DNA of 44,099 nt from Baffinella frigidus (lineage: Eukaryota > Cryptophyceae > Cryptomonadales > Baffinellaceae), in the NCBI GenBank assembly GCA_026770585.1, contig MU646376.1, positions 702,389 to 746,487 on the forward strand, in the 5' to 3' direction. Position numbers and translations under genes: made by a program. Below the pieces are notes generated by a model. It saw only the letters and a program-made list of their open reading frames with translations. It was not told the DNA's origin and did not search any database. Positions 4,101-43,300 of this stretch are shown here, in pieces. The stretch's first letter is position 1. Each line of letters begins with the position of its first letter.

Positions 4101-4581
4101 CTTCTCACTTTACAGATTCCCCACGCCGCAGGGGTCTCCCCCGGGGCGCGCTCACGCGCCACACGTCGCCAGTCCACCCAACTCCCGGGCAGCGTTTCAG
4201 TCTCAGAACGCCCGAGAAGGCGCCAGCTGGGCCGCTGTGAAGGCGAGTAGCGCCGCCTGTCTCAAAAAGGCCCACGGAGCCTACTCCATCTCCTCTTCCC
4301 ACACAGGGAAACCGCCGTGGCCGCAATGGCCGGATCAGCGGTGATCTCCCAGCGGGATAAAGAGGAAGTGGGCCCGAGAGTGCGCTGTCTTCCCCGTCCC
4401 AAGTGCCCCCTGCCCCGCCGAGGCCCGTTGACGGATAGGTCCGGGTTATTCAAGTTATCCTATCGAGTTGCGAGGGGTCCGAAAGGGGACCCCTCGTTTT
4501 GACCATCAATTTGACCTCTTGGTGAGCTGAGGCAAGAAGATCTTGAGAATCGGCGCAAGAATCGGCGTGGGTGAACCCGGG
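4101..4581. promoter_or_regulatory. Divergent intergenic region with both 5' UTRs
   Basis: This is the only heptamer-free, GC-rich gap between two oppositely oriented start codons (4100 minus, 4582 plus). It should hold both transcription starts. I see no TATA box or other clear core element, so the assignment rests on gene layout alone. Confidence 0.45.
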
Positions 4582-9458: not shown

Positions 9459-10296
9459 ACCAACTTCAGTTGGGACAGGGTCTAAGCCTTCAACCCTGAA
9501 GCAGGATGCCTCGTCATTTCGGCTGACGACGCTCCTACGAGCGATGCGTCGCAACGGCGCACAGCTTGCGGTAACCCCTAAACCCCAAACCCCATCCTCT
9601 CAACCCTAAACCCTAAACCTTCAACCCTCAACCCTAAACCCTAAACCATAAACCATAAACCATAAACCCTACAAAGTAAAACCCAAACCCCAACCCCTCA
9701 ACCCTAAACCCTTATCCCCAAACCCTCAACCCTAAACCCTCGATCCTCAACCCTAAACCCTACAAACAAAACAAAACAACTTACATCCTCACCACCAGCT
9801 TGCGCCACGCTCTAAACGATACATCACGAACCCTCATCCATAGATCCAAACTCTAAACCCCAAACGCCAATCCCCAAACCCCCGCAGGTTCTAGCCATCG
9901 AGTACAGCGGCGCCCCCCGGCACCCCCTACCACACGGTGGACTACGAACCTTTCATCAAAAGTCAACTTGCCTGAAGACAATCAACTTTCAGGGGTTTTC
10001 TAATGCAAACTGGACAGGTAACACCCGGAATTCCGGGCCCAACGAAACCCTGGAAGCCCACTGTGTGGCACCTCTCCCTACCCTGCGCCCGAGCTTCTCA
10101 CAACCGTGCTAAGGCATCAGTGAAGGAGCATAACCCCGGCAGGTGTCCTAGACCCTAACCCCCAACCCCCAAAACCCCTGCAGGTTCCAGCGATCGAGTA
10201 CAGCGCCGGTCCCCATAACCATACTAATGGGTCAATAAAGGGCATAACCCCCCCAGGTATCCTAGACACTAACCCCCAGATGCCATGGTGTTGCCG

Positions 10297-10334
<38 letters not shown>

Positions 10335-13300
10335 CCTCTGTCTCTCTCTGTGCAGGTTCCGGCCATCGAGTACAGCGGCGGTCCCCGGCACCCCCTACAC
10401 CACGACCCAGCCTGCAGTGCGCGCCTGGTACCCCAACCCCTACATCTAGAGTTCAGGGTTTAGGGTTTCACTCCTGAACCAGGGCGACCCAGCCTGTAGC
10501 TCGCGCCTGGTACCCAAACCCGTTTGTGTTCGCGGTTTGGACGGGCCTGGCGTGGTTCATACAGGTATGTCCCCGCAACTCAAGGCTCAAGGGCCTCATT
10601 TAGGACCTGTGCCGAGAGTAACCACACGGTGGACTACGGACCTTTCATCAAAAGTCAACTACGGACCTTTCATCAAACGTCAACGAACCCTGCGGGCTGT
10701 TGACTCTAAGGATTTTCACATGCAAATTTGGTCACGTTTCCGCTAAATCTGGGGGTCCCGAAACCCTCGAAGCCCACCGTGTGATAGAGAAGAAGAAGAG
10801 AAAAGTTATGTCCCCGGCCCCCCTACAACGCGACCCAGCCTGTAGTGCGCGCCTGGTACTCTAACCCCTACATGTAGGGTTGAGGGTTGAGGGTGGCGGA
10901 TTGGCGGAGCCTCTGCTCACAGTGGTCCCCCATCTTTAACCCCATCCCGTAAACCCCAACCCTAAACCATCAACCCTAAACCATCAACCCTAAACCATCA
11001 ACCCTAGGCCCTAAACCCCAAACCCTAAACCTACACCCTGAACCCTAAACCTCAACCCCTAAACCCTAAACCCTAACAGTTATCAGAGGTGCAAGCGAGC
11101 CCTCTTCTGGTAGTGGGAGCATCAACCCCTAAAACTTAAAACCTACACCCTAAGCCCCCTACCATAAACCCTCAATCCCTCCAGGTATCGGCGGTCCATA
11201 CGAGCCCTCTGCTGGTGGTGGGAACATCGCTTTGGTCGTGTCTCTGGGCCTCACTCGGGAACCACACGGATCTCGCGTCTATGGGGGAGGGGTGGTGTGC
11301 TTTTGCAAGCAAAGGTTCCCCCCTCAGGGTTTAGGGTTTAGGATTTAGCAGCACAGTGTATTAGTAATACTTATTATTAGTGCCCGACATTCCCCCTCGC
11401 CCACTGCCTTCGATGGAGGTTTCGACCAGAATTGTTATGAACTGGGTTTCATCTAGAACGAACGGGGGTTCAACCAGAATTGTTATGAACGGGGTTTCAA
11501 CCAGAACGAATGGGGTTTCAACCAGATTGGTTATTCCTTATCCATGGGTATGAAACCCGAATTTCGCGTCTCTGGGGGACGTGTGGTCGCCTTTGAAAGC
11601 CAAGGTCAACCCCTCAGGGTTTGGGGTTTAGGGTTTAGCAGCACAGTGTATTAGGGATACTCATTATTAGCGCCCTACATTTCTTGGTTGCCCCCCCGCC
11701 CAGTGGTCTTCGAACTGGGTTTCGACTGGAATTCTGGTCGAAATTCCGGTTATTCCTTAGCAATGGGTATGAAACCCTAATTTCGCGTCTCTGGGTGGGG
11801 CTTGGTGTGCCTTTGGAAGCCGTGGTTGGGCCCATGTCTCCCGTATCCGTTATTCCTTATCGTCGATATCTCCTTTATCGTCCTTATCTTCCGCTTAATC
11901 CTTTTACTCAATTCTTTTCTGAGAGAAGAACCGCGCACGGTCGTTGAGTCTTCTTCCGTCGTCTTTGTCTTTTCTTCTTCTCCGTTTCCTTCTTTATTGC
12001 GCTCAAGCCTGGAATTGAGTGATCCCAAAGTCTATGAGCCCTGTGACGGACCCGTCTCGGCACATCTTGAGCTCAAAGTGGTGTCAGTTTATCCGATAAC
12101 TGAATCAGTTCCTTTTCAATAGGAGATTGGATAGGAGAAATTAGCGAGGGCGTAGTAAAATTAATTAGGCCTCCTGATTAAATTAAAGCGCCTATGTGGG
12201 AACTGATTTAGTTATCTTTCGAGATGAAGTTAATTTTGGTATGAACAAACCCTGCTCGGATGGGGTGTCGCGCTAGCCCCAAACCCCAAACCCCAAACCC
12301 CAAACCCCAAACCCCAAACCCCAAACCCCAAACCCCCCAAACCCCAAACCCCAAACCCCAAACCCCAAACCCCAAACCCCAAACCCCAAACCNNNNNNNN
12401 NNNNNNNCCCAAACCCCAAACCCCAAACCCCAAACCCCAAACCCCAAACCCCAAACCCTACACGCAGGGGGTGTGGGCGCGTGCAACGCCAGCCAAGGGT
12501 GCATCGTGGTGGATGAGGCGCCTCTCTCCCTCTCGCCCGCTGCCCTCTCTGCTCTCCCTGCCGCCTCTCCGTCTCCGGCTAGCGGTACAACTACTTTTGG
12601 TTCCACAACCACTTTTGGTTCCACAACCACTTTTGGTTTCACAACCACTTTTGGTTCCGCAACCACTTTTGGATCACTCTACTCGGGCTATGTTTGGATG
12701 ACTCGACTCGATCCGCTTTTGGATCAATCTAGTTCCCGCGTCCTTTTGGAGGAAACCGTGCATTTCTGGGTGTGTAAGATGCGCCGAGGATCGGCATTCG
12801 TCAGCCATCGAAGGCTGCTCGGCTGCCCTATTCTGGTACAAATGTTTACGAATGTTTACAACCCCACATGTAAACAGGTTCCTCCAGCATTCTCGATTGG
12901 TCCCGGAGGACTGAAACAGTACATTTCTGGGCGTGCAGGACGCGCGGAGGATCGGCATTCATCAGCTGTCGAAGGCTTCTTGCCTGCAATCGATTTCAAT
13001 AAAGCAAGGTTGGAAGAAATTATTTTGTTACGAATAATAAATTGCAAGCATGATTCGTAATCGCTCACGCGGCTCCTCGGCCTCTACTCCTCATTTCAGA
13101 ACGCGACGTTTTGTTTCGTGGTACTAAACGAGTGTGCGGGGCCAGGTGAGACGCAGCCCCTCGTCCTGTCCACGTCCAGGCGTGTACCGTGAACCGAAAA
13201 CCTCGGTACAAACTTAAAACACAGACTTGTATCTGAAATTTGTATTTATGTCCTGGGCGTGTAGGATGCGCGGAGGATCGGCGTAATGTCGCGTTCTGAA

Positions 13301-16300
13301 ACGGTGTATCCCCTCGGGACACTACGAGGAACCGCAGCACCGGATATCCAGTGTAACGTGACAAACAATTGCTGGCTTTTGGCGTGTTTCCTTAGAAAAA
13401 ATCCAGTAGGTGACTTTAGATGGTTATCCGTAGTGTTTTGAGTGGAATGTCCTGGGCGTGTAGGCTGCGCCAAGGACCGGCATTCATCTGCTGTCGAAGG
13501 CTTTTCGGCTGCAATCGATTTAAATAACGTAAGGTGAGAAGAAATTATTTTGTTTCGAATAATAAATCGCAAGCATAATTCGTGATCGCTAACGCGAGGA
13601 GGCTCCTCGAATAGGATGCGCGGAGGATCGGCATATGTCAGCTGTCGAAGGCTTTTCTGCTGCGCGGCTCCTCGGCCTCTGCGACTGGTGATTGTCCACT
13701 GCTTGACGAAAATTAAATGTTTAATTAAATAATTGAATATTTGACTAAATGTTGAATTGAATAATTAAATATCTAACTAAATAATTAATTCGATTTTGAA
13801 GTGGGTGGGTGATTAATTGATCGGTTGTTTGACTGATGATAGATTTATTTTTGAGCCCCAACGCTGCTAAACTCTTAACTCTAAACCCTAAGCTTTCCAC
13901 TCTAAACCCTGAACCCTAAACCTTAAACCCTAAACCCTAAACCCTCAACCCTCAACCCTCAACCCTAAACTCTAAACCCCAAACACCAAACCCCAAACTC
14001 CAAACCCCAAACCCTAAACCACAAACCCCAAACCCTTACCCCCAGATCCCACACCCGAAACCCGAAACCCCAAACCCCAAACCCTCAACCCCAAACGCAG
14101 GCCTGAGGACGAGTGGCCGAGCTTCGCTGCGACGAAGAGCCCTCCAGGGGTAACCACAACCCTAAACCCTAGACTCTAAACCCGAAATCCGAAACTCTCA
14201 CCCATAACCCATAACCCCCAACCCCTAACCCCAACCCCTGCACGTGGTTACCCCTGAGGGGCAGGGGTAACCGCTAGCTCCGTCCTTTTTGCTTTACACA
14301 ACGTCAGGATTCCTAGCTCTGGCCCAGTCTTATGTGGGCTCACCAATTTCGTGAGCCCGGGCTCTTTCCTGCTCCAAATTTGACGGATTTGTACCAGAAA
14401 CCCAGCATGTCATCTTGACCAAGAGCCATCCAGGGGTAACCCTAACCCTAAACCCTAGACTCCAAACCCTAAACCCTAAACCCTAAACCCCAGACTCTAA
14501 ACCCTAAACCCTAAACCCTGAACTCTAGACTCCAAACCCTAAACCCCACCCCCTAACCCCTCACCCCTAACCCCTAAACCCTAACCCCTAACCCTTAACC
14601 CCTCACCCCTCACCCCTCACCCCTCACCCCTAACCCCTAAACCCTAACCCCCAACCCCTGCACCCTAAACCCCAAACCAAGAACCACCATCTTGAAAGAA
14701 CCAGGCAGCTTTTGTACCAGGCCGGTGAGCAAATAGCATAGGAAAACGGTTTTAATTTAAAGTTTCTGACAGTGAAATTTACTGCTCAGAATGAGTTTTA
14801 CTTATAATTTTAAAGCAATCGTGTAGTAACTTTCATTAAATCCAAAAGATTTAAATTAAAGCCGTTTTCCTGTGAAATCGGGCCGGTTCAGCACCAGGAC
14901 GGTCAAACCCCGAGCCCTAACCCCTCAGTAAGTAACTTGAGTGTCAAACCATCCAAGCGGTTCCACCCTAACCCCTACCCCCCCTTCAACCCCACACCCC
15001 AACAACAAAACCACAAACCCTACACCCAAAACCCACCCCCCCAAAACTAGGTGCGGTTCGACTCACCCGAGCGGTTCAGTCAACCGTGATCTCATCCGGA
15101 CGAGTATTCATCATGAATACGATTTGGGTGTATCTTGAGGGGTAAAAATAAGACAGTCGTCTATCTAAACTTGATTTAGAGCCGTAAGATACACCAAAAT
15201 CGGATCGGAGATCCCCGAAATCGTATTTATCATGAACACTCGACGGGATTAAATCCGACCCTAACCGTGGTCCGACCCTAACCGCTGCACCCGACGCCCT
15301 AAAACCACAACCCTACACAAGGTGCGGTTTGATTCTCCGGAGCGGTTCAGCGTGTACAAGAACGGCTCTGTCGTGCCAGCCTCTCCCCGCGCCGCGCTCC
15401 TCCACCGCATCATCGCCCTCCTGGTACCCTCCACCCTTGGAACAGCAACCCTATGATCAGGGTCGCTTGCGGGAAGCCAGGGTCGGTTTGGCTGAACTCT
15501 CCGCCGTAAGTCGACATTTTCGGGGTTTTGTTTGAATCACAAAGTGCAAGACCGGCTCTGTGGCCCCTGCGTCCCCCCGATCCGCGCTTCTCTACCGCAT
15601 CGACGCCCTCCTGGTAGCGTTCAGGGTTCAGGGCTTGGGGCTGCTTCCTGGTGGGGTGTAGGGTGTAGGGTGTAGGGTGTAGGGTGTAGGGTTTAGGGTG
15701 TAGGGTGTAGTGTGTAGGGTTCGGGGAGGTGGTACCGGCGGAGAAGAGCATAGAGAAGTAGGCGATGTTCGAGTGAACGGCTCGGTCGTCCCTGCCTCTC
15801 ACCGCGCTTCTCCACCGTTTCTCCACCCTCCTGGTAGGGCTTACGCTTCAGGGTTTCGTTAGTTGGGTATGCTGCGGGCCTGTCTCGCCCGATTTTTTTT
15901 CATTTGATTCATGGGCCTGTCTCGCCCGTTTGGTTTGGTGTTTGATGGGGGCTGTCTCGCCCGATTTAGAACGGCGCGGTGGTCCCTGCGACCCCCCGCT
16001 CGGTTCAAACTGAGTGGCCTCGTCCATGAATTTGTTCTTCGGGCCTTTGTCGCCAGAGTTGAGATGAATCCCTCGCCACACTCGCTCCGAAGATGTTTGT
16101 GTTGTTGGGTGTCTCACCCGATTTGTTTTCAGTTTGTCTACGTACAAAACACATTTTTTTATTTATCTTAATTTTGTTTTGTTTTGTTTTGTTTTGATTT
16201 GATTTGATTTGGGAAACTCCGTGGATGGCAGGGGGACGCGGGGCTGCTGGAGGGCCGAAGCGTCCTCGATCTCGCAGGTTTCAGCCCCAACGAAACCTTC

Positions 16301-22300: not shown

Positions 22301-25300
22301 ATTGAATTGAATTGAATCAAAATGGTTAAGATCAAATTGAATTAAATTCATCCCGACCGTGGTATCACACAAACCGCATTTCATTCCCCCTTCTGGATGC
22401 TCGTGCCTGCAATGTTTGACTTTGAGGGACTACCACACAGCGGGCAACGAAGGCATTTTCGGGCGCTGAGAGCCCGAGTTTCCGGTGCCTTATCCGCAGG
22501 AGCCCCCCTATGCCCCTATGGGTTGCCTACTGTAGGATCCTAGGTCTTGTCGCGTAGGTGTTATTCAAACTCCCTTTGAAGTCCGCTGTGTGGGTGACTG
22601 CGTCAAATATTGCAGGAACGAACATGCTATAGGTTTGGGTGAGCTGCGCAGCATCAACTTAGCCGATCAAAGTCACATTTCTCGCCGAAAGTCAACTCCA
22701 AGGCACCGTCGTGAAAAAGTCCCCCGTGCGACGGTTGACTGAACCGAACACGTTTTGTACCAGGACGGTGACTAATCCGGGCAGGCTTAGTACCAGGATA
22801 ATTCTTGATTAGTCAACTGCTGTGTGCAGGTGGAGTGGATGTCGGCCGAGGATGAAATGGTCGTTAACAGGTTGTGAGCCCCACCACCATTACAACAATC
22901 AAACCCGTGTATTTATTTTTTGAAATTTGGCGCTTCGTTTTTTTGAGCTATTCCGGTAGGTCTTGTCGCGTTTTCGATTTCGCGACTGCCAGACTTCACG
23001 ACTTCATTTGTACCATGAGATTTAAAACGGTGTGTTTTAAAACGTTTTACGACCTTTGAAACCTTTTTGAAGTCTGAAATCTTGAAATCTCGAAGTCGAA
23101 AACGCGACAAGTCCTACCGGAATAGCTCTACGTTTAAAATTTCAAAACGGTTATCCAATTCCGAGCATTTTCGTTGTGACATTGAGCGGGGGGGTTTCAG
23201 GTTTTGATTGCGTGGCGCGTGGTTGTTGAATGTGTGGTTTCCCGATTTTGGAGCAGGCAGCTTGTGATTGGGGTTGATTGAAATTTTAATTGCGTTTTGA
23301 TTGCGTGATTTTGAGAAAAGCAAACCACGTGTGGCAGGCAAACTTGTGGTCGGGGTGCAGGACCACAAGAACTCATTTTTTTTGGCATTGGGCGCTTTCT
23401 TTACATTTTGATTGCGTGGCCACGCAATCAAAACGTGAAAGGCGTGTAAGATGTATTTTTAAATGTGTGGTTTTGTTTATTTTGAGCAGGCAACTTGTGG
23501 TCGGGATGAAGGAGCACTGGACGGCCGCGCACCTCCACAGGGCCCTTGCCGCCCACTTCGCCTCCGTCCGGGTGCGGAAACCCTACTCCCCACACCCGAA
23601 ACAATATGTACCTCAAGGACAAACCCTGCACCACAAACAAAAACGTGCGTTGCGCGTGCAGGGTCTAGGATTTCAGGGGGGTTAGGTTGTAGGGTTCAGG
23701 GTTTGGGAGGAGAGGGAAGCACTTGACGGCCGCGGACCTCCAACGGGCGATACCCGTTGAGGCTAAAGGGCCTATCTAGGGCCTGTATCGAGAGTAATGA
23801 AGAAGAAAGAAGAGAAGATGCAAAAGAAGAAGAGAAGAGCAGGGCCCTCGCCGCCCACTTTGCGTCCGTCCGGGTTTGAGGGTTTAGGGTTCAGGGTGTT
23901 TGGGGTCCAGGGGTTGTTGTTCATTTACATTTTTAACAACCCCTGGTCCAGGGGTTGTTGTTCATTTACATATGTTGCGGGTTTAGGGTTTTCGGGTTTC
24001 GGGTTTAGGGTTTTGGGGTTTTCGGGTTGAGGGTTGACACCTCCACTGGGCGAAGTCTCTGTCCACTTAGCAGCCACCGGGGGCTTCACGGACACAGTGC
24101 ATCTAAACCATTTGTACTAGAATCTTATCCATTGCCCTGGATTCCCACCAGAATTTTGCCTTGATTTTACGGCGAAAATGACCTTGGCCGTTACTAAAAA
24201 GGCGCGGCCCACTTCGCCTCCGTTTGGGTGCGAAAACCCATGTCCTACACCCTTGAACACTGAACACTGAACACTGAACTCTGAACTCTGAACACTGAAC
24301 ACTGAACACTGAACACTGAACACTGAACACTGCACACTGCACACTGCACACTGCACACTGCACCCGAAACCTGAAATCCGAAACCCGAAACCCGAAACCT
24401 GAAACTCTAAACCCGAGAACAATCATAACTGAACAACGAATCCTGAACCCTGGACCCTACAATCGACGCGGTATATATTCCAGAAAACTAGCCTCTCTAA
24501 AACCCAATTTGGAATGCACAGGTGTTGGCATCCATGGTGTTTTTCCCCATAAATCCATCGACGTAGCATGCTTTCCAGAAAATTGGAATCTCTGAAAGCC
24601 AACGTGGAACGCACAGGTGTTGGCATTATTCCAGAAACGTCGATGGATTAATTTTAGAGAATCTGATTTGACTTTCTACAAACAATCTACAAACCAGTTA
24701 AACCAGTGCGGAATGCACAGGTGTTGGCAGCCATCTCTTCGACGAGAGACGTGTACCTTGAAGAGGTCCTCAAACCTGCAAACGTAAACCTGTCTTCAGT
24801 CGTTCTATTATCCGTGGTACAACCCACATTCCAGAACCTTTGATTATCTCACAACCAATGTAGAATTCTAAAAACCAATGTGGATTTTTCTGAAAAGCAA
24901 TGCGGAATTCAGGTGTTGGCAGGCATCTCCCCAACGAGAGACGTGTACCTTGCGTGCAAGACCCCGCGCGCGCTCGCCTCTCTCCCCGGTACAACCCTAC
25001 CACACAGCGGGCTACGGAGGGGGTTTCGGCCATTTTTTTTGTTTTGCCCTCTGGGCGCATGGCACGTTGTGTTTTCCCGACAAGAGACGTGTACAGTGGA
25101 CCTACCCTAACACATACCCGTCGGGGCCGGACTGATTGAGTATGTGTGGAGGGTATGTATGCGTTATGGTGTCCACCCTTCAGGCATACTTCCTTGCAGG
25201 GGGAAATCGGGGGCCGGCCGAAGGAGTTTGTGTGGAGGGTAAGTATGTGTTACGGTAGCCTGTGTTAGGGTAGGTGGACTGTACCTGGCGTGCACGACCA

Positions 25301-28300: not shown

Positions 28301-31300
28301 GCAAAGGTGGAAACCCCATCTCCCAGAACCCCAAACACTAACAACCCTAAACCCCAACTCTTGCATGCCGTACCTTGCAGCGGCGTCACTTCCTATTGCA
28401 GCTACCAGTTGCAACTTGAAATGCAGTTGTATAGTTTCTACATGCACTGTAACAGGAGTCTGCAATACATGTATATCCTGTTATTTGCAGCCTGCGATGC
28501 CTTTATGCCCTACCTCGCAAAGGTCTAGCTCTGTCCCACTCACAATTGGGCTCGCCATTTTTTCGCCTCCCCCCGAAATTTCGTAGGTAAATTTCATGGG
28601 GGGGGGGGGGGGGTCAAAATTCACCTACGAAATTTCGGGGGGGGCGAAATAATGGCGAGCCCGAATTTAGTGGGACAGAGCTAGAAGGTGACACCCCGCG
28701 AAGCTCAGGTGCACCGGTTTCTTGGAAATGTAAGGTGCAACGGTTTCTTGAAACGGTTTCCTGGTGTAACGGTTTCTTGAAAATGTAAAGTCATCTGGGT
28801 GTCAACTTTAGTCTGCGTCTTGAAAGTGCTCGGACTCACCACATTAGTGAGAGCCCAAATAGACAGAGACAGCGCCAAGGGCCTTCGCATCCACGCTCTG
28901 TAGCATCCTGCGTCTCATCCATGCTCTGCACCCTAAACCCTAAACCCTAAACCCTAAACCCTAAACCCAAAACCGTCACGGGCTGTCGCGTCCGTTGAAC
29001 AGGTGCGGTTTGGTGTTTCGTGTAGCAGGTCCCACCAACCTTCACAGTCGGACCAAATCGAAGATTGTTTTGGGCCATTTCCTTCGGACAGAGGGGTCGA
29101 ATCCGACCCCTCCGTAGGGGAAACCCGAGATCTTAAAATCGACGATTTGTTCCCCTCCCGTGATGGTTGGCGGTCACTTCACCCGCCCCAACTGGTGTGT
29201 GCGGTCGCGCTCGGCTGGATTCTGCTCTGCAACACCCATGATTCCGTGGATTTACGGGTGTCTCATAAACTGCATTTGTTTGTGGCAGGTGTTATGTACG
29301 TTTTGGTGTTTGGTGTGGAAAACCATATACTCTAAACCCTCAACCCTCAACCCTAAACCCTAAACCCTAAAACCGTAAACCCGAAACCCGAAACCAGATA
29401 TACTGTGAAACGGGGCTTCCAGCTGATACGGCCGCGTGTGTGCAATGGTATCCTAAGCCCTAAACACTAAACCCTAAACCAAACACCCTAAACACTCAAC
29501 CCTAAACCCTTAACCCCACACCCCAAACCACAAACCCTAAACACCAAACCCTCAACCCCAAACCCCAAACCCCAAACCCCAAACACCAAACACCAAACAC
29601 CAAACACCAAACACCAAACACCAAACACCAAACACCAGACACCAAACCCCAAACACCAAACACCAAACACCAAACACCAAACCCCAAACCCCAAACACCA
29701 AACACCAAACACCAAACACCAAACACCAAACACCAAACACCAAACACCAGACCCCAAACCCTGAACCCACAACTCTAAGCCCTAAACCCTAAACCGTAAT
29801 CCCCCCTTTTCCCATTCGCCAGCATGCGTCCACTGGTACCCTCAACCCGATCAATTCTTTCAGGCAAATCATGAAAATGTCTTTCGAACCAAATCGGGGA
29901 TTGGGACAACATCTGACGCGGTGTGGTGTCATCCCGTATGTGGCCAGTAGGCGCATACGCCCTACCGTAGGGCCATAGGACCTGCCTAGGACCTCTATGG
30001 GATCAATTTTGACCCCATGGCCACATGGATATGCCCAGATGAACACATGTGAAACGGTGCGCTATTCTGTACCCAGATCAGCACATGTTGAAACGGTGCG
30101 GTGTGGTGTATCATCAGGTTAGAAGCCACGAACCAGAGCTCATAACCGTGTCAAGAAAAATGCAGAGATGACTGAATCTGTTCTTTTTCGATAGAAGGTT
30201 GAATGGGAGAAAATAGTTAGGGCATAGTAAATTCAATTAGACCTCCTACTTAAATGAAAACGCTAATTCGGGAACTGATTCAGTTATCTTTCAAGATGAA
30301 AGTAACCGCTTACTTCGAGTAGCGTGATTCCCACTTCATCAGATCCGAAACGGGGTCTACAGATCAACACATCTCAAACGGTGTGGTGTTAGGTGTTCAC
30401 ATCAACACGTCTGAAGTGGGGTGCTGCGTTCATCCTCAGGTCGAAAGGAGGTGGAGATAGAATCCATCCGGGAAAAGCTCGTAAGAGCGGCAGACACGGG
30501 GTACAATATGTAGTATAATACGGGAGGCATGTGCGGCGCTGACGCTGGTTGTTGGGCAATAAATTACCAATCTCTCTCAGGTCGAAAACGGGATCAATGG
30601 TCGTGACCGCGGACATGTCATTCCAACCCTTCTCCAACTGGGTCACCATCAACAACGAAGCTTGCCACCACGCCAGCTCATTTGAAATGGTAAATCCCTC
30701 CCAGGTGGCCAAATGTGGCGACCCGTAGACTTTTGGCGAAATTTGGCGACCCGTAGACTTTTGGCGAAATTTGGCGACTCGTATACTTTTGGCGACTTGA
30801 GCCCAGGGGTAATGTTGGGGTCATTCCAACCCTTTGCAAACTGGGTCACCATTAACAACGAGGCTTGCCACCGAACCACGCTGGAGGTCTGTCCTGGGTT
30901 AAGCTTGAGGGTTTAGAGCTAGGAGGTTTTGCTGGGGGTTTAGAGCTAGGAGGTCTTGCTGGGAGTTTAGAGGTTGGCGGTCTTGCTGGTTAGAGGTGTT
31001 GGGGTTTGAGGTCTTGGGGTTTAAGGTCTTGGGGTTTAGAGCTACGAGGTCTTGTCCCGCCTTGGTCCGGTTGACTATTCTCAAGTTGAGGATGGGACTG
31101 CGATTGCCAAGCACGTTTGCTGTGTTGGGGTTTCTCCCTTGTTTCGCGGTTTAACCCCAGCACCAATCCCTAAACTCTAAATTATAAACAGCCTTAAACC
31201 CTAAACCCTAAACAACCCTGAACAACAATAAACCCTAAACCCTTAACTAAACCATAAACCCTAACCACTAAACACTGAACACTGAACACTGAACCCACAA

Positions 31301-34300
31301 CACACTATGCCGAGAACTCAAAACCCAAACCCCCAAACCTTAAACTAAGCCCTAAACCCTAACCACTCTGAACTCAACCCTGAACACTGAACCCACAACA
31401 CTATGCCGTGAACCCTCAAACCTGGCGTGTCACACAGGCGGATGGAGTGCCTCTCGGAGCGATTGGCGAGGAGTGCTCAGCCTGGCAACCGGTCCTCGAC
31501 CCTAAGCCCTAAACCCAAAACCCCAAACCCCAAACCCTAAACCCTAAACTCTAAACCCTAAACCCTAAACCCTGAACCCTCAATCCTGGACCCTAAACCC
31601 CAAACCCCAAACCCCAAACCCCAAACCCCAAACCCCAAACCCCAAACCCCAATCCCCAATCCCCACACCTCAAACCCCAAACCCAAAACGTGAGGCAGGT
31701 GAGCGGTCTGGAGGCAGACGGCGAGGACGAGGTTGGGGAAAGTCCCCCCGAGGTACCGTCCCACACAAAAATACGTGTTCCCGTTTCGTGAATTTCCGGT
31801 GGGGGGCCAAAATTCACATTGTAAATGGGGGGGGGGGGCGAATTAATGAGGAGCCCAAATCAAGTGGGACATAGCTAGATGTTGGGGAGAGTCTCCCCGA
31901 GGTGCCGTCCCACTTGATTTGGAGACTCCGTGTTCAACGTCCAGGGTGCAGGGTTCAGGGTGTTGGGCTCTGAGTTTGGGGTGTAGAGTTTGCCTGATGG
32001 CTCCTCCTAGCTCTGTCCCACTTGATATGGGCTTTGACGTTGCGGACCCCCGAAGTGCCATCGAACACTCATATCCGGGAACACGTATTATTTTTCTTTT
32101 AAGAATCTGCCCGATAATTACTACGTAATCATTTTATTTGTGGAGTAATTTTCGCAGGGTTTTCCTGATGGATGCTGTCACTGTGAGGCACTCACGACTT
32201 TTGACTAACTCGACGTTTTCATAGTGCTGGTCCTGTCTGGTTCATGTATCGTCCCTTTGAAAAACGCTGCCTGTTTTAATATATAATAGTTTAATATATA
32301 TCATTTTAGTCAATAGCCGTTGGGGGACGTGCAGACCGTACACTCCAAACCTCAAACCCTGAACTCTCAACCCCAAACCCCAAACCCCAAACCCCAAACA
32401 CCAAACACCAAACACCAAACACCAAACCCCAAACACCAAACCCCAAACCATAAACCCTAAACCGCGACTGTTGGGGGACGTGCAGGTGCAAGGGAACCGA
32501 GTCGTGTCCTCGAACGATCGCGTCCAACTGTCCTTCGATCCGATCTGGGCGTGGGGCCTTCTCATCCTTGTCCACGACCGCGCTACAGGTATTGCAGAAT
32601 CACTAATCACTAGACCCTAATCTTTAGACCCTCATCACTATACCCTAATCCCTAGACCCGAATCCCTAGACCCGAATCCTTAGACTCTCTAGACGCTAAT
32701 CCTTAGACCCTTAGCCTTCGACCATCATGCTTACCTCACCCCCCTTCCCCCTTACAATCACGCAGCAATGAGTACCTAGTGCTGCCTCAGTCGACTCGGG
32801 CGTGGAGCCTTCTCATTCTCCTCGCGCCTGGCCAATATCCCCTAAGTGGCCAGTAGGCTCATACGCCCTACCGTAGGGCCCTAGGACCTGCCTAGGACCT
32901 GGCTTGGGTCTTTTAAGACCCCCTGACCACTTCAGGGATACGCACGACCGTGCCAATGTTACGATTTCGTGCCCTAACGTCCTCTTATACCTGTCACGTC
33001 CGCATATTAAGAGTGTCACGTCCTCTTATACCTGTCACGTCCACTTATTGAGGGGGTCACGTCCTCGTTTGGCAGATGAAAATACGGAGGCACTGGTCAA
33101 CGAGATCCGCGTGTGGTAAACACTCAACCCCAAACCCTACACCCCAAACCCTCAACCCTAAACCAAAACCCCAAAACCAAAACCCCCCCAAAACCCAACA
33201 CCAAAACCCCAAACCCCAAACCCCAAACCCCAAACCCCANNNNNNNNNNNNNNNNNNNNNNNNNNNNNNNNNNNNNNNNNNNNNNNNNNNNNNNNNNNNN
33301 NNNNNNNNNNNNNNNNNNNNNNNNNNNNNNNNNNNNNNNNNNNNNNNNNNNNNNNNNNNNNNNNNNNNNNNNNNNNNNNNNNNNNNNNNNNNNNNNNNNN
33401 NNNNNNNNNNNNNNNNNNNNNNNNNNNNNNNNNNNNNNNNNNNNNNNNNNNNNNNNNNNNNNNNNNNNNNNNNNNNNNNNNNNNNNNNNNNNNNNNNNNN
33501 NNNNNNNNNNNNNNNNNNNNNNNNNNNNNNNNNNNNNNNNNNNNNNNNNNNNNNNNNNNNNNNNNNNNNNNNNNNNNNNNNNNNNNNNNNNNNNNNNNNN
33601 NNNNNNNNNNNNNNNNNNNNNNNNNNNNNNNNNNNNNNNNNNNNNNNNNNNNNNNNNNNNNNNNNNNNNNNNNNNNNNNNNNNNNNNNNNNNNNNNNNNN
33701 NNNNNNNNNNNNNNNNNNNNNNNNNNNNNNNNNNNNNNNNNNNNNNNNNNNNNNNNNNNNNNNNNNNNNNNNNNNNNNNNNNNNNNNNNNNNNNNNNNNN
33801 NNNNNNNNNNNNNNNNNNNNNNNNNNNNNNNNNNNNNNNNNNNNNNNNNNNNNNNNNNNNNNNNNNNNNNNNNNNNNNNNNNNNNNNNNNNNNNNNNNNN
33901 NNNNNNNNNNNNNNNNNNNNNNNNNNNNNNNNNNNNNNNNNNNNNNNNNNNNNNNNNNNNNNNNNNNNNNNNNNNNNNNNNNNNNNNNNNNNNNNNNNNN
34001 NNNNNNNNNNNNNNNNNNNNNNNNNNNNNNNNNNNNNNNNNNNNNNNNNNNNNNNNNNNNNNNNNNNNNNNNNNNNNNNNNNNNNNNNNCCCTCTCCCGA
34101 ATACCGGTGACCGAACAATCTGAATGTTTTCGATGCTGGTACTAAACCGACAATTTTTGTCTGGCGTTGTTTTCGTGCGGGCCACTCGGGAGGCTTTGAA
34201 GCACGTCTTGCCCGGATATTTGGACATCACGTGACCAAAATTGCTGACTTTTGGCGTGTTTCCTTGGAAATAATCCAATAATTAACTTGAGAATGTTCCC

Positions 34301-37300
34301 CGTAGTGCTCCGAGTGGTTCGCCCCCTCCCCGAGAACCGGCGACCCCGTGCGTACTTGTTCTTCTTCTTTAGTACTCTCGATACAGGACCTGAATAGGCC
34401 CTTTAGCCTTGAGTTGAGTGATACCATAGTCTATGAGCCTTAAGAAACGAGCCCGCCTCGAAAAAACAACTGGAGCTTTGCCAAATCGGGATTTAGCATA
34501 GCTCTCGGCACCGCCAGATTGAGAGCTGAGCCTTCGTACGCACCCGGCAGACCCAACGAAGTAAAAGTCTGCATGAGCATTCAGTGAAAATGCATGCACA
34601 GAACATGAATGTACAGCAATTGGTGAAAAAATAAATGCATTTAGTGAAAATAATTGTTTTGCAGGTGAGAGACCGCCTGCATGCACTCAAGACTTCGCTC
34701 GACTCGTACTGCAACTACTTCACAACACGGTACTCATTTCAGAAGCGTTCAGTCATGGAGGCCTTTCTCACCCCCTGAGAGGGTTTGTGGTCCAAATTTT
34801 ACAATTCGCCAAGGTAAAAGTGTTTTGTATACTTTTAGATTTATCTCCTTTTGACATTTCAATCGAGACTTCGCTCGATTCGTACTGCAAATGCTCGACA
34901 ACACGATGCGGGGTTCGGTGTTTGGGGTTTATGGTTTGGTGTTTAGGGTTAGGGGTGTCGGGGGGGGAGCGAGAGACAGAGAGGGGGGGAGAGCGAGAGA
35001 CAGAGACGACGGTGCGGGGTCTACTCAGTCCCTGCTGGCTGAATTTGATTTCAAAATGATTTCAAAATCAAGTTCAGAATTGATTTCAAAATCAAGTTCA
35101 GAATTTTATTTTGACTCGTGAATATGATTTTGATTGTGGGCCAGGAACGTGATCGTCTGCAGTTTCAAAGTCAAAAATATATATATTTCAATATGAAATC
35201 ACCAAAACAAAATCCGAAATCGCCACGTGGAGACAGGCCGCTGTCGGTAGGTTCCAAGTTAATTTCGGAACAAGACAGATTCTGTCCCGCTATCTTAGGC
35301 TTCCCACGCCGAAGATAAGCGTGTATATTCTATTTTGGGCGTACAGTGATGCTATCCTACGCCTTTTCATGTGGACAGCTTCTGGTATGTTCCGAGATGA
35401 AAGTGGTGTGTGTGCTGTTCGATTCGCTGTTCGTCAAAAGTGAACTCATGTCAACTTCCGAAACTAGGTTCGAAGTGGTTTTCGTGAACCGCGGCTCGAC
35501 CTACCCTCCGCTGGATGCTTACCTCGATCAGCTCTTGGAGGCAGGTTCACCCCGGATCCGGGGTCTCTGTCAGGGTAAATATCAAGTCTAAAATCGATGA
35601 GTTGGTCCAACCGTGGGGGTTGGTGGACCTTGCTTAGCTCATAGAGGCAGGTTCACCCCTGATCACTGAACTCTAAACATTGAACACTCAACCCCGAACA
35701 ATGAACACTGAACACTGAACACTGAACACTGAACACTGAACACTGAACACTGAACACTGAACACTGAACACTGAACACCGAACACTGAACACCGAACACT
35801 GAACACTGAACACTGAACACTGAACACCGAACACTGAACACTGACCCCTGAACACTGAACCCCGAACAATGAACACTGAACCCTGAACACTGAACCCCGA
35901 ACAATGAACACTGAACCCTGAACACTGAACCCCGAACAATGAACACTGAACAATGAACAATGAACACTGAACACTGAACTCTGAACTCTGAACTCTGAAA
36001 CCCAAGACACTATTGCTGGTTGGTCCCGAATCAATCATGGTTGAAGCTGGTTGACCCCGACACCCTACCACGCCAGAGGGCTCGAGGGAAACCGACACTT
36101 TATCCACGCCAGATCTGGCGTCGTTGACTCAAGAATTCAGGAGATTTCCGGTGAAATATTTCAAATGTGGACGTTTCGAGCCCTCTGGCGTGGCCTTGGT
36201 ACCCTCCGCTCTATGCCTACCTTGCTCAGCTGATGGAATCAGGCTGGATTTAGATTTTAGGGTTTAGGGTTGGGGATTTAGGGTTAGGGATTTAGGATGG
36301 GATTTAGGGTTCAGGGGTTATGGTGTTGGGTGTCGGGTTGCTGACTGCCTTGCTCCGCTGAGGGGAGGCAGGTTGACCCGTGAACCCTGAACCCCGTGCA
36401 TAGTCGTGGATGCTGCATCATCCCGCATAATCGTGGATGCTGCATCATCCCGAAACCTCGAACCCCAAACCCCAAACCCCAAACCCCAAACCCCAAACCC
36501 CAAACCCCAAACCCCAAAACCCCCAAACCCCAAACCCCAAACCACAAAACTCAACCCCCACAGGGGTCTGCGAAAACAACGCGCTGGGAACGTTCGCGCC
36601 GTTTCAGTGCGAAGAGACGCCCGAAACCCAGGTGCGTCCTCAGCCCAAGGCAGTCATAGAGTCCTCTTATTCGCTTTAAGGCCGTCTACTTGCCCTAAGG
36701 CAGTCACCCGATCCTGGTGGGCAGTGTTGAAAAAGTTGATTTATGCAGTCAACTTTTGGGATGTGACCCGAGTTATGGGCTTTCTGGTCTTCTGTTGCTC
36801 GCGAAGGTGTGCGTTGTTGCTGTTTTTCTTCTCAGGGGGTGTATTTTTTTCTCAAGAGGTGTGTTTTTCGTTGTGAAGAGGTGTGTTTTTCTTCTCAACA
36901 GGTGTGTCTTTCGTTGTGAAGAGGTTTCTTTTTTTGAAAAGGTGTGTTTTTCTGCGCAGAACAAGGACGTGCCCGTCTCCGTCAACCTTTGCATCAAGAA
37001 GGTGACTTTTGCCACCCCGATGTTTTCCGCCACCCCGAATGATGCGCTTGTTGATAGACTCAGGGTTGGTTGGCTCAACGGATTTTCATTCATCACATCC
37101 ACCGGGGCACGATCTGGGAGGCGACACGCGAGAGCAGAAAGATGCTCTAGAGAGTCACCTACCCAGAGTCATATATCACCGAGTATACAACAGTATACGA
37201 AGATAATTGTGCTCACGCCGACTGCGGGTGCCACGCGGTGGACTACGGAGTTCCCACCACCCTGAACAAAAACGATCGTGTCCAACAAATTTGTACCAAA

Positions 37301-40300
37301 AATGCATTTCACATTCACGGTACAGTGAATGTGTCAGCTTGCAAGCAACGTTTCGTTCACCACCCTAGATTTTACGCAGAGCAATTGTAAAAAACAATGG
37401 CTCTAGTAGAGTCCCTGTCAGGGACTTTCGATCCACTTTTGGCGTGTATTCCCTCAAAGATCCGAGAAATTGACTTTTGCGAATGCTCCTCGTCTGATCT
37501 TGGGTGCCGTACCGCGTTTCTGCCAACAATGGTTTCGCCCTGTCTTTGGTGTTAACTTTCGAAAGTGGCGAAGAAGAGTCGAAAGTTGACGCCTTTTCCT
37601 GAAAGTTGACGCCTTTACCCGTCGAAAGTTGACGTCTTTTCCTGAAAGTTGACTCCTTTTCCAGAAAGTTGACTCATTTCCCTGAAAGTTGACTCATTTT
37701 CCTGAAAGTTGACTCCTTTTTCTGAAAGTTGACGCCTTTTCCTGAAAGTTGACGCCTCTTCCTGAAAGTTGACGCCTTTTCCTAAAAGTTGACGTCTTTC
37801 CCTGTGGGTGCAGTACCGAGTCGCACGGGGACGTGGAGCGAGCAACAACTTCTACGCGGTGAGATGTCAACTTTTGGATCTTGAGATGTCAACTTTTGGT
37901 GAGATGTCAACTTTTGGATCTTCTCTGACATTGTTGCGTGCAACCGCAATCTACGGTCTGTTTGTGTGTGTGGTCAATTGCGTCTCTAGTGTGTTGAGGA
38001 GGTCAATGTCTGCGATTCTGGCACAGTTTGTCGTTTGACTCAACACAGTGATGGACACAGCCACGATTCTCAGGACACGTCACGTTCCCGCCCGGCACCA
38101 CTCGGTGGACTACGAACCTTTCATCAAAAGTCAACTTGCCTTGATGCAATTAATTTTAAAGGATTTTCTGGTGTAATTTGGTCACGCGACACCCTGAATT
38201 CCAGCCCCTACAAAACCTTTGTAGCCCACCGTGTGGCTAGCTCTGTCTCAGTCTATCTGGTCACACCAGGAGGACAGGGCACTATCCCGCCCGGTAGTAA
38301 CGCGTGTCGTGCCAACAATGGACAACGGTTTTGCTCTGCCGGCGGTGTCAACTTTCGAAAGTGGCGAAGAAGAGTCGAAAGTTGACGCCTTTTCCCGTGC
38401 TACCACGGGCAGGTTACGGACCCGGATATCGCCTTCGACTTCTCAGCAGGTGCATCCTAGCTCTAAAGTTGACGGATTTGTCGCAGCTCCAAAGTTGACG
38501 GATTTGTACCGCAAACCAAGTCTGTCAACTTGAGAATAGTCGGTCAACCCGAGTGAGGCAGAGCAGCTGTCGCCTTCGACTTCTCCGCTGGTGCATCTCA
38601 CCTCTGCCTCACTCCGAGTCACTCGGGTTGGCCGACTATTCTCAAGTTGACATGCTGGGTGTGCGGTACAAATCCGTCAACTTTGGAGTGAGAAAGAGCC
38701 CGGGCTCACCAGATTGGTGGGCCCAAATGGACTGAGACAGAGCTAGGTCATCTCAGAGGGGTCATTTGACTTCCCAGCAGTTGAATCCCAGGTGGAAACA
38801 AGCTCAATTCAATTACCTTTTTTCTGTCTTAGGTGTGGGTTTCGTGCTATGGTGAAGCTAAGTCGAGGCTAAGATAGCAAATGTGGCCCTCAAGATCGCC
38901 GCTGGTGCACCAGCAGCTCCACACAGCGGACTGCAAAGATATTTCGTGTGAACACTCCATACGTGGATACGCCGTATCACCCTACGGTTGGCTATCCGCT
39001 TGTGAACCCCGCAGCTGTTGACTAACTCGAGTCTTCCTGGATGATGGCGTAAACCTTAACCCTGAATCCTTAACCCGTAACCCGAAACCCAAAACCCGAA
39101 ACCCGAAACCCGAACCCGAAACCCGAACCCATCCCGCGGCAATTTCCTCGAGTAGGTGTACATGCCGTACGTGCTCCGTATGCCAAGCGCTCCAATGCTC
39201 ATCACTTTTGGCCTGTTTCCCGGGTAGAATCAATTTTGCTCGAAGATCGTGTTGCAAAATGAAATAACGAACTTCTGACCTGGCGTGGTGTACATGCCGT
39301 TCCTCGCGCAGCACCACTAACAAACTCCTGGTTGACACAAACCCCAAACACTTATAAACTCTATCTCAGGCAGCCGTCCATCTAAACCATTTCCGGTATG
39401 AAACGATGGGATTTAAGCTTATCCCATCTTCGTATACGTTGTATACTTGGTGATATACGACTCTGGGTAGGTCCCTCGAGAGTATCTTCTCACTCGTGTG
39501 ACCTCCCCAAATCAAGGCAACCAACCAACCCTGAGTGAATCAAGTGAGTGCAGACCCGTCGCGAGGCGATGTGCTGGAGGAGGTGTACATGCCCTTCCTC
39601 GCGCAACACCACGCGTATGAATGCGTCGGCCCCCACTGGCGCACCGACGTCATTCCGGTATGTCACTCCGCTTCACCACTCAGGGTGTAGAGTTCAGAGG
39701 CTAGGGCATATTGGCGCACTGACGTCCTTCCGGTATATCACTCCGGTTCAGAACTCAGGGTTTGGGGTTCGGGTTGAGGGTTGAGGGTTCAAACTGGCGC
39801 ACCGGCGTCATTCTGATGGGGTTCGGGTTTACGTGGGGGGCTCAGGAGGATGTGTGCATGCCTTTCTTCGCGCAGCACCACGAGTACCAATGCGTCGGCC
39901 CCCACTGGCGCACCGACGTCATTCCGGTGGGCTTCGGGTTTAAGTTTTCGGGGTTTCTGGAGTGGGCTTCGGCTCGAAGGTTTCGGGGTTAGGGTATCCC
40001 TTAAGTGGCGAGTAGGTTCATACGCCCTACGGTAGGACCCTAGGACCTGCATAGGGCGAGTTAGGTCGATTGATTGCCCGCCCGCCACTTGAGGGATACT
40101 GGCGCACCGACGTCATCCCCGCCGGCAGGCTCGTGAACGCCCGCGTGACCGGTCACGCGGACGCCGAAGCCAACTGTCCGAGGTGACTGCCTTGCGTGTG
40201 CCTTCTTCACAACACCACTGAGGCGGTGGTAATCTGGCTAGATGTGAACCCCAGGGCTTCAGGTTTCGGGGTCATGTGTCAGCGTGGGGTTTGAGCCTAG

Positions 40301-43300
40301 GTTTTAAGGGTTCGGGGTTTCTGGTGCACAGGCTTTATTGCGGTGGGCTTCGGGATCAGGCGTGCATGTTTCATCGCGCATGGTTATTTTCAAAGCAAAT
40401 CATGAACCCGCTCGTGATGCAGGATTACATGCCGCTCAAGTCCTTCGCAATGATGACAGACTGCTGCTGGAGCGTCGGGAAACGCAACGGCCTCTCCGAA
40501 TGGCGGTCTGTCTCCTCTTTCGGATAACATACCCCCGGGACATCACCCTCTAGACTTTCTTTTCAGAAGTGATGCCGACTACGGAAGGGCGAGGTGTCTG
40601 GCCATTGCGGGATCGAATCAACCCTAAAGGTCCCAAAGCCGGTCTCTCCGAATGGCGGTTAGTGCCGCTTGGAAAACGTAACGGGTTATGCTATCTGCTC
40701 ACTCGAGTGTCACCGAACTCGAAAAAGCGCGGTCCCTAGAAAAGCCCCAGCCTCGTTACAAAAGTTGTTGATGCCCAAAGTCAATCCCAGGGAAATGGCT
40801 GGGAGGAAGTTGAACTTTTCTAGGGTTCCAGGAGCCTTCGGGGCTACCGTAGTCAAATACCGTATGCTAGCTACCCTGAACACAACGTTTTTTTTGAGAA
40901 ACAATCTTCTGTGCACCACTCGAGAATGCTGGAGGAACCTATGTACATGTTGGGGTTGTGAATCTTTGTATCAGGATAGGAAATTCCAACTTCGTGACTG
41001 TGCTAATTTCGCAGCGTTACGTGACCAATCTCGAAACTGCCGCGTGAAGATCTCTCGAGAATAACAACACACACCATCCCACGGACCTAAGCTTCTGCGA
41101 ATCTGATCCAACGGGTGGTTGTGAATGGTCGTTTTCAGGTCTCCTGGCGGGCGGGTGGTGTCACAAACTCCACCGATGCATACATGGCGTCCGTGTTGGG
41201 ATTGACAAAGGACTCTCTTAGTACGTAACCCCTGCACTATATGAGGTACTATATGTGTTTTGGTACCCACCCAAAAGCCATGCATTCTGCGCCGGGGGGC
41301 TGTATATATGTATGTAAGATATGGCAAAAAAACGTTTTTCGCACGTGCGGTAAAAAAAAGACCACAAGCGACATGTTCTCCAGATTCCGAGTGAACCACT
41401 CTTTGGTATAACACAGGCCTCGCGCCTCATGCAGGTCTCCTGGGGGGCGGGTGGTGTCACTCGTGAACGCTGCCATCGACACTACTTTCGAGGCAAGCAC
41501 CCTACACCCTACACCCTACACCCTACACCCTACACCCTACACCCTACACCCTACGCCCCACACCCACCACCCCTCGTCTGTGGAGAACGAGGTGCCCCAA
41601 ACCCTCCACCATCCACACTCCTCGCTCTGTCTGATCAAAACTGTGCTTGCCATAAAAGTATTGAACGCTGCCATCGACACCACTTTCGAGGCACGCATTC
41701 CGCTCCACACCTTCCTTCGTCCTCCCTATCAATCTCGAGCTTAGAATCGAGTGATCCATCGACACCACTTTCGAGGCAAGCACTCCTCGCTCTGTCTGAT
41801 CAAAACGTGCCATAAAAGTATTCTTTTATGTGCGTGCCATAAAAGTATTGTTGTTGCCCTTTTGTACTGGAGTTTCTGTTCTTGATGTGTTTTATGGCGA
41901 GCCCGGTTTTGATCGTGGGGTTGGTGGACGCTGCAATCGACACTTTCCAAGCAAGCATTCTGTCCTACAACTCGTCACCTCACATAATCTACCTCAGATT
42001 TTATTTTTTCACTTACATCGCGGTATTATTCATAACCTGAAATTACGCGCTCTTACCAAACGGTTCCAGCGTCCAGGGCAAATCTGAGGTAAATTTACTG
42101 CAGGTGTTTAAACCCTAAAACCCTAAGCCCTAAACCCTAAATCCTGAACCCTAAACCCTGAAACCTAAACCATAAACCATAAACCATAAACCATAAACCA
42201 TAAACCATAAACCATAAACCCTACACCTACACCAGGTGTGCAAAAGCTCGTTGAAGAGGTCGTTGACCAACGCCTCTTGCACTTGGCAAGCAGGATGGCC
42301 CCGTATGCGTCAAGTCACACAGCGGGCTACCAAGGGATTTGCGGCCCATTTCGGGCCGAGTTTCCGTTACCTTATCTGTAGGAACCCCCCTATGTCCCGA
42401 CTGATTGCCTACTGTAGGGTCCTAGGTCTTATCGCTTAGGGGTGACTTAAAATCCCTTCGAAGTCCGCTGTGTGGATGGCCCTGTATGCGTCAATCCACG
42501 TAGACTGGAGTCCCGACACCCAACACAATACACCTCGTAAAAGTGTCTTAAAATGTATTCAGGTACTATCTACACGCTGAAAGTGCGGGACCAACCAACC
42601 TGGTTGGTGTGCAAGAGCTCTTTTCAGTACCCACGCTTTTCGCACTCGGCACGCACGATGGCCCCAATACACGTCGGCCAACATCATCTCTCCCGTAAAA
42701 GTGTTTTTCACGTACATCGTGGTACTATTTACAACCTAAAAGTAACAAACGGTTCCAACGTCCAGGGCAAATCTGAGATGCGTTTTATGCAGGTGTGCAA
42801 GAGCTCTTTTCAGTACCAGCGATTCTCGCACTCGGCACGCACGATGGCGCCATACGCGTCAATTCACGTCGACTGGAGCTACGACCCCTACGACCTGCCT
42901 CCGGACCAAGAATACTACCGCAAGGTGTGTTTTGTCGTAGATTTCGGCTTGGCTGGGATTCGGGGTCAGCCGCACAGCGGGCTACGAAAGGATTTTCGGC
43001 AGCAATCCCTATGACCTTCCTCCGGACCAAGAATACTACCGCAAGGTCTATTTCAGGGTTGCGCCTTGTGTTTTGGGAGCGCTCATCTCAGTCTATTTGG
43101 GCCCACCAATTCGGTGAGCCAGGGCTCTTTTCCGCCCCGGAGTTGACGGATGTGTACTACACAGCCAGCATGTCAACTTGAGAATGATCCGCCAGCCCGA
43201 CTGAAGCAGAGCTAGGAACGCTTGCCTGGAAAGCAGAGCTAGGATGTGGGTGGTGCCGCGAAGCGTGGCTAGGGATCCCATAGGAACGATGATACTAACC

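Follow-up and report, generated by a model that had tools for sequence, protein, structure and literature searches.

The DNA analysed here, referred to throughout as the window, is a stretch of 44,099 nucleotides from the cryptophyte Baffinella frigidus (GenBank assembly GCA_026770585.1, contig MU646376.1, positions 702389-746487 of the forward strand). It contains two divergent genes, many of whose exons lie among direct partial copies of themselves. The + strand gene begins with a first exon at 4582-5252, and the minus-strand gene has an open frame at 3816-4109; judged by eye, the first exon opens like a signal peptide and the minus-strand frame starts similarly. Using splice sites and phases, we modelled the + strand gene by hand as 34 exons, mostly 40-110 base pairs (bp) long, from the start at 4582 to about 43,580. 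This exon model is our own, since a preliminary description of the locus gave no exon coordinates, and its exon numbers cannot be mapped onto the earlier ones. E6 and E7 are badly bounded and were dropped before the tests, leaving 32 exons; a border or phase is uncertain for E2, E6, E7, E30, E32 and E34 and for the E22/E23 junction. Pfam returned no family for the 970-residue join of the modelled exons and none for the first exon alone, and the gene model is therefore based on splice signals, chained phases and open frames. Rfam gave no match for the window at the gathering threshold. Genome searches covered the 382-Mb eukaryotic assembly, which is gappy: many of the stretches fetched from it contain undetermined bases (N), and L001, L002, L005, L006, L019 and L020 consist of them entirely.

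Partial exon copies in the flanking introns

Copies of each exon were sought in flanks of up to 2.5 kb at a score of at least 30, after masking of heptamer arrays and tandem repeats and, in the target, of every tested exon. Direct partial copies accompany 18 of the 32 exons (35 matches), compared with inverted copies for two (2 matches), which bears out the preliminary description in its central claim that exons have direct partial copies in adjacent introns. The copies are also more frequent than for swapped exons, where 21 of 870 pairs matched when each exon was aligned to flanks belonging to exons at least three positions along the gene, a set that in part overlaps the exon's own flanks. 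Counted by bases at 80% identity or more and a score of 34, 892 of 2853 exon bases (31%) of the window gene have a direct copy and 36 (1.3%) an inverted one.

The copies are local: none of 65 exon segments is copied at a distance of 8-10.5 kb, compared with 41 of 603 segments of the introns, which contain dispersed elements. This contrast speaks against a dispersed transposable element or introner as the source. Introns are self-copied too, with a local direct copy for 136 of 431 non-dispersed intron segments (a figure that includes matches to exons) compared with 25 of 65 exon segments; exons therefore seem caught up in a general process of local duplication rather than specially targeted. 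Exons are involved in 28 of the 75 local direct pairs in the window, while exons other than E1 make up 7.7% of the unmasked bases in 5300-43600. Slower change of exons can explain part of this excess, since each such pair has a member under constraint. Over 21 sources, pairs within 1 kb number 221 direct and 16 inverted, with a median spacing of 237 bp and a median identity of 88%, and the direct kind is the more numerous in every one of 20 stretches (five from the window and 15 from 14 other loci; 198 against 15 when summed).

The exons listed below were placed by splice sites and phase, and the fragments by local alignment of each exon against its own flanks (window positions).

10356..10427, +, exon E3
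9888..9936, +, E3 5' fragment, upstream, cut by a dispersed inverted-repeat element from about 9929
10184..10214, +, E3 5' fragment, upstream
10099..10278, +, probable tandem junction near E3 (unit 10099-10164 repeated at 10214-10278)
10485..10509, +, E3 3' fragment with GT, downstream
10810..10855, +, E3 3' fragment, about 40 bp of intron co-duplicated
11185..11234, +, exon E4
11081..11123, +, E4 5' fragment, upstream
15351..15423, +, exon E5
15544..15613, +, E5 near-full copy, downstream
15775..15833, +, E5 3' fragment, downstream
23490..23571, +, exon E10
23341..23366, +, E10 5' fragment, upstream
23718..23748, +, E10 middle fragment, downstream, polarity exception
23840..23873, +, E10 3' fragment, downstream
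24204..24223, +, E10 3' fragment, downstream, similar intron flank
24913..24987, +, exon E11
24721..24760, +, E11 5' fragment, upstream, intron flank co-duplicated
25076..25094, +, E11 middle fragment, downstream, polarity exception
25280..25321, +, E11 3' fragment, downstream
26910..26979, +, exon E14
26639..26671, +, E14 5' fragment, upstream
27439..27525, +, exon E15
27680..27702, +, E15 3' fragment, downstream
28227..28306, +, exon E16
27980..28045, +, E16 5' fragment, upstream
28494..28522, +, E16 3' fragment, downstream, followed by inverted-repeat element 28524-28685
30581..30689, +, exon E18
30820..30872, +, E18 inner fragment nearer the 3' end, downstream
31699..31752, +, exon E20
31878..31901, +, E20 3' fragment, downstream
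32486..32588, +, exon E21
32798..32819, +, E21 3'-side fragment, downstream
34665..34729, +, exon E23
34860..34905, +, E23 3' fragment, downstream
35468..35544, +, exon E24
36200..36237, +, E24 3'-side fragment, downstream
38413..38449, +, exon E28
38570..38588, +, E28 3' fragment, downstream
39554..39657, +, exon E29
39135..39166, +, E29 5'-side fragment, upstream
39287..39317, +, E29 5'-side fragment, upstream
39712..39732, +, E29 3' fragment, downstream, intron flank co-duplicated
39793..39813, +, E29 3' fragment, downstream
39845..39926, +, E29 long 3' copy, 79% of the exon, 90% identical, with GT
40098..40119, +, E29 3' fragment beside a dispersed element at about 39995-40099
40423..40505, +, exon E31
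40640..40657, +, E31 3' fragment, downstream
41433..41495, +, exon E32, re-chosen; downstream border without GT, perhaps a GC donor just inside
41137..41164, +, E32 5' fragment, upstream
41662..41693, +, E32 3' fragment, downstream
41756..41778, +, E32 3' fragment, downstream
41924..41944, +, E32 3'-side fragment, downstream
42793..42924, +, exon E33
42266..42318, +, E33 5'-side fragment, upstream
42475..42510, +, E33 middle fragment, upstream, polarity exception
42607..42675, +, E33 5' fragment, upstream
43007..43045, +, E33 3' fragment, downstream
2468..2575, -, exon K2 of the opposite-strand gene
2087..2122, -, K2 3' fragment, downstream on the minus strand
1184..1278, -, exon K3 of the opposite-strand gene
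1340..1365, -, K3 5' fragment, upstream on the minus strand
1528..1576, -, K3 5' fragment, upstream on the minus strand
943..963, -, K3 3' fragment, downstream on the minus strand

Polarity and order of the copies

Each fragment with a score of at least 28 was classed by the nearer exon end and by the side of the exon on which it lies. In the window gene, 36 of 39 fragments follow one rule, copies of the 5' end lying upstream of the exon and copies of the 3' end downstream (12 upstream/5', 24 downstream/3', 1 upstream/3' and 2 downstream/5'; Fisher p 2.8e-7, the fragments being non-independent in that some were copied from other copies). All three exceptions come from the middle of an exon and touch neither of its ends, and one more would be added by the first choice of E32 (41139-41221), which was changed to the listed exon after the polarity was seen. 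The classed fragments thus agree with the earlier statement that copies usually keep one exon end. The same is true of the copies it attributed to K2 and K3, where four fragments were recovered on the other strand, all four polar in the direction expected there. Together with the other genes described below, 58 of 61 fragments are polar.

This polarity is what tandem duplication would produce if one of its breakpoints fell inside the exon: both ends would be present only in the complete exon, and the spare piece would have to sit on the side of the end it carries. Dispersed insertion, inversion and random truncation of full copies do not predict it.

The fragments are also sorted within introns. 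In all six window introns that hold both kinds, the 3' fragment of the upstream exon precedes the 5' fragment of the downstream exon, and 13 of the 19 fragment-bearing window introns hold one kind only (5' or 3'). Intron gain at AGGT sites by tandem genomic duplication likewise, in the parts of the sources available, duplicates exonic sequence beside AG/GT sites (PMC3443670, PMC4974935). As we reason from the available part of that model, however, the start of the downstream exon should precede the end of the upstream exon (PMC3443670), the reverse of what is seen in six of six introns, and intron gain was dropped as the source of the copies because of this reversed order.

Copies in other genes

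Eighteen exons were tested at seven other loci, namely one myosin locus (L017, contig C20) and six kinase loci, the latter taken from a list of protein-kinase matches for having at least two nearby matches, before their sequence was seen. A search with the Myosin_head profile gave four matches, one on C20 (in L017) and three on C50. The four L017 exons, picked after the repeats were seen, comprise one above the Myosin_head cut-off, one with a weak Myosin_head match, one with a weak IQ motif and one (8271-8434) with no match, and all four have 5' copies upstream or 3' copies downstream. One myosin exon segment, FTLKHYAAEVVYDAMGFCFKNKS, stands there three times in a row, at 192, 422 and 697 (L017:192-768), with one copy frameshifted.

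Across the seven loci, where the queries for the copy, codon and stop tests were profile matches or stretches chosen by eye rather than exact exons, nine of 18 exons have direct copies (18 fragments) and none has an inverted one. All 18 fragments are polar (7 upstream/5', 11 downstream/3'; Fisher 3e-5). Omitting L017 exon 8271-8434 leaves 17 exons, eight of them with copies, and 15 of 15 polar fragments; the kinase part comprises five of 14 exons in three of the six loci, with nine of nine fragments polar. By bases, 752 of 2705 (28%) are directly copied and 0 inverted. With copies present at the myosin locus and at three of six kinase loci, the phenomenon is no local oddity of the window. The polarity rule, the sorted order and the occurrence in other genes go beyond the preliminary description and make the case stronger than it was there.

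Duplication units, breakpoints and heptamer arrays

Wrap-around homology, in which the DNA between two copies matches the DNA beyond them, was found in 75 of 187 testable local direct pairs, compared with 3.4% in swapped controls. A probable tandem junction can be read at one place, where the intron stretch 10099-10164 recurs at 10214-10278 and the first of the two units stops within an E3 fragment. The repeated tandem duplication of exon-plus-intron blocks that had been suggested for this locus is thus in line with orientation, polarity, order and wrap-around homology, but the block is mostly not a whole exon. Only four of 39 fragments cover at least 80% of their exon and one covers 90%, whereas 28-58% of randomly placed duplications would be expected to take in the whole exon if their length were the observed spacing or 0.4 times that.

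Heptamer arrays are dense in the window (132 Tandem Repeats Finder rows, many of period 7) and in the genome, where a 21-mer of three CCCTAAA units has 53,120 matches compared with 27 for a reversed control. The preliminary description had the copies separated by such arrays and produced by recombination or slippage between them. Separation is seen in places; a masked array lies within 15 bp of two of 34 interior breakpoints, which is about random (4.4% of random intron positions), and the breakpoints fall inside exons, so that the proposed mechanism finds no support. Nor is there a clear link between array density and copy coverage over 20 stretches (Spearman 0.33, p 0.15); L032 has 41 heptamers and 0 direct pairs, L029 one heptamer and nine direct pairs. 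Because breakpoints, density and locus contrasts show no link, the arrays are, within this sample, bystanders or separators and not the motor. That introns became inflated as a by-product of duplication, as was also suggested, is plausible.

On the sense strand the arrays are mostly C-rich, with 309 CCCTAAA and 36 TTTAGGG over eight loci (window 5300-43600, L017 and L027-L032); L027 shows the opposite orientation and L030 is nearly even. CCCTAAA contains neither AG nor GT and TTTAGGG has an AG every seven bases, so splicing could select array orientation.

Divergence between exons and copies

Differences between exon and copy at codon positions 1/2/3 amount to 8.6/7.1/20.0% in the window and 6.3/6.2/19.4% in the other genes. 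Pooled by hand, they affect 102 of 1420 sites (7.2%) at positions 1 and 2 and 141 of 712 (19.8%) at position 3, a ratio of 2.76 with an approximate 95% interval of 2.1-3.6 by our own arithmetic. Codons with a single change comprise 114 silent and 84 changed ones. CpG context and GC class were tested as causes of the third-position excess, and neither explains it. Where two copies cover the same stretch, changes confined to the exon number 0/0/19 at positions 1/2/3 and changes confined to a copy 23/24/43 (the compared pairs overlap). In the copies, position 1 thus changes as often as position 2, which is what free drift would give. At least part of the position-3 excess is due to changes that the exon underwent after one copy arose and before the next.

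Among fragments that reach an exon border, the border dinucleotide is kept in 26 of 34. In the gapped flank alignment, nine of 29 window fragments lie above the 95% control level, a few of these flanks being inflated by other copies, and co-duplication of intron flank is clear in single cases (E3 10810, E11 24721, E29 39712). Some ends of homology at splice sites are insertions, as after the E16 fragment at 28494. There, an inverted-repeat element (28524-28685) lies between two AAGGT copies directly at the donor of the E16 copy, and the AAGGT pair is a possible 5-bp target duplication at a splice-like site.

Origin of the copies

On balance, we consider it probable that the exon copies were left by small direct tandem duplications, which occurred often and had one or both breakpoints inside an exon. 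Duplication of an intron together with the following exon start would leave a spare exon start upstream of the complete exon, and duplication of an exon end together with the following intron would leave a spare exon end downstream. A half exon could persist because, with one splice site only, the splicing machinery can ignore it, whereas selection would remove duplicates of whole exons, which would be prone to being spliced in. From the small number of near-whole copies relative to expectation we infer that half exons are tolerated and whole ones mostly are not. Nested rounds of duplication would yield several copies per exon, and later insertions of arrays and small inverted-repeat elements would drive them apart to the present spacing of mostly 150-370 bp. 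The duplications themselves may stem from break repair, for example fill-in of a staggered break followed by end joining.

Several results weigh against this explanation. A copy drifting freely beside a silently changing exon should show a position-3 excess of at most 2:1, and the observed ratio of about 2.8 exceeds this reasoned limit; a forward simulation, although crude (random introns, no arrays, invented rates), yields only about 1.7. In-frame stops occur in one of 50 fragments from the window and the other genes and frameshifts in seven of 50, counted over the aligned parts, so the earlier impression that most copies carry stops or frameshifts did not hold up. The next 20 bp beyond the border are at least 70% identical in three of 34 border fragments, against 41 of 57 simulated ones (eight borders were set by eye and three lack AG or GT at one end). 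Moreover, 112 of 187 pairs lack wrap-around homology, and copies are absent from three of the six kinase loci. The deficit of whole copies is non-significant if 20% are expected (p 0.09). Simulated fragments under a whole-exon filter are polar in 70 of 77 cases, yet 19 of the 77 reach 80% coverage, a larger share than in the real data, so that the splice-site filter is tested weakly; without the filter the run is uninformative on polarity, since its coding placed every full copy upstream and assigned ties to 3'. Heavy turnover beside splice sites may explain the remaining loss of flanks, yet it leaves room for a diverged gene copy as the source.

A further reading, which we regard as doubtful, is that a genome-wide process in this lineage copies exon ends, limited on one side by the splice site, to the intron next to them, and that these copies then change as coding sequence does. 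Such copying would differ from ordinary tandem DNA duplication and could be, for instance, an exchange at exons with a diverged gene copy, or could involve copies that were translated for a time. The fragments may also derive from a diverged allele or paralogue through unequal exchange or template switching, at a stage when exons were still alike and introns no longer were. Jumps back between gene copies would yield the same polarity, and the coding-like differences, the rarity of stops and the frequent end of homology at the exon border would all fit. Such an origin is nevertheless unlikely, since copies 80-130 bp apart would need many short switches, some copies retain the intron flank of their own exon, and the myosin locus on C50 (partly N) gives only chance-like DNA matches to the exon and copies on C20. 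Alternative or formerly functional exons, selected for a time and truncated later, would account for the third-position excess and the low stop count, as well as for the near-full E5 copy and the long E29 copy with its donor; we consider them quite improbable, given that truncation by random deletion gives no polarity, that all 19 exon-only changes fall at the third position, and that copies change as often at position 1 as at position 2. The copies do retain an excess at position 3, some of which is explained by exon changes between copy births. Mutually exclusive or functional tandem exons, expected to be full-length with both splice sites, were rejected on the scarcity of near-whole fragments, with the E5 copy as a possible exception.

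An artefact in which alternative allele contigs were set side by side in introns would suit a gappy assembly, and an allele contig ending in collapsed exons would also give polarity and sorted order. It predicts paired 3' and 5' fragments in each intron, however, whereas most fragment-bearing introns hold one kind; in addition, copies down to 80-130 bp apart have no N between them and divergence differs among copies of one exon, which makes this explanation very unlikely. Slippage or recombination between heptamer arrays, duplicating exon blocks, gains from the abundance of the arrays and their position between some copies, but with breakpoints inside exons and rarely near arrays, a weak correlation and the contrast between L032 and L029 it is highly improbable.

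Relation to known duplications

Small tandem duplications through which exons may have been copied have known counterparts, which we cite from partial texts. Fill-in of broken ends by CST-Pol alpha followed by end joining produces an established class of small tandem duplications, described as the form that short insertions (<100 bp) most often take in the human genome (PMC8355091). Like the copies here, these are direct, local and homology-independent (PMC8355091). The spacing here is larger and the copies reach about 30% of exon bases, and a link to such repair would be one of analogy. Exon-like sequence in introns of the same gene is known from tandem exon duplication, including partial and intronic classes (PMC9013439, PMC12343006); the copies here are mostly one-ended and polar. 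At 80% identity, the available part of one survey gives intragenic homologs for about 2% of exonic bases in human, 0.08% in fly and 0.06% in worm (PMC9013439), compared with 31% and 28% here, obtained by another method and from few genes. Exonize, as far as its accessible text goes, reports more vertebrate genes with partial, inter-boundary and intronic duplications than with full exon duplications (PMC12343006). Interstitial telomeric sequences are similarly telomere-type heptamer arrays inside chromosomes in the part of the source available (PMC6410037), whereas the arrays here occur throughout the genome, and exon-copy breakpoints are not marked by them. The kind of event is therefore already known, while for the density, polarity and sorting we found no account: a search of the open-access literature, with subscription papers mostly outside it, returned no description of the polarity rule or of such a density of copies.

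If true genome-wide, the copies would constitute a readable fossil record of small tandem duplications, in which exons serve as anchors for breakpoints and order, and a route by which introns grow out of their own exons. They would also make it possible to test cleanly whether splicing tolerates duplicates with one splice site as opposed to two, and false exon calls by gene finders would be a possible hazard in such genomes.

Other repeats and splice sites

The introns also carry a dispersed family of elements up to about 160 bp long, with inverted-repeat ends CACAGCGGGCT / AGCCCGCTGTG, about 80-96% alike and present in both orientations. A second family of small inverted-repeat elements has CCACACGGTGGACTACG ends, and one of its copies breaks an E3 5' fragment. 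A near-palindromic repeat of about 150 bp occurs at three sites with 87-95% identity.

CACAGCGGGCT/AGCCCGCTGTG family: 16305-16463, 22431-22589, 26147-26222, 42316-42478, 360-502
CCACACGGTGGACTACG family: 9929-10069, 21097-21235, 38094-38237, 6780-6922, 18893-18959
Near-palindromic repeat: 1001-1157, 5629-5788, 20240-20412

Three exon ends with borders set by eye (E32 at 41495, k1 of L028 and m3 of L017) look like GC donors, and GC-AG introns may be in use here.

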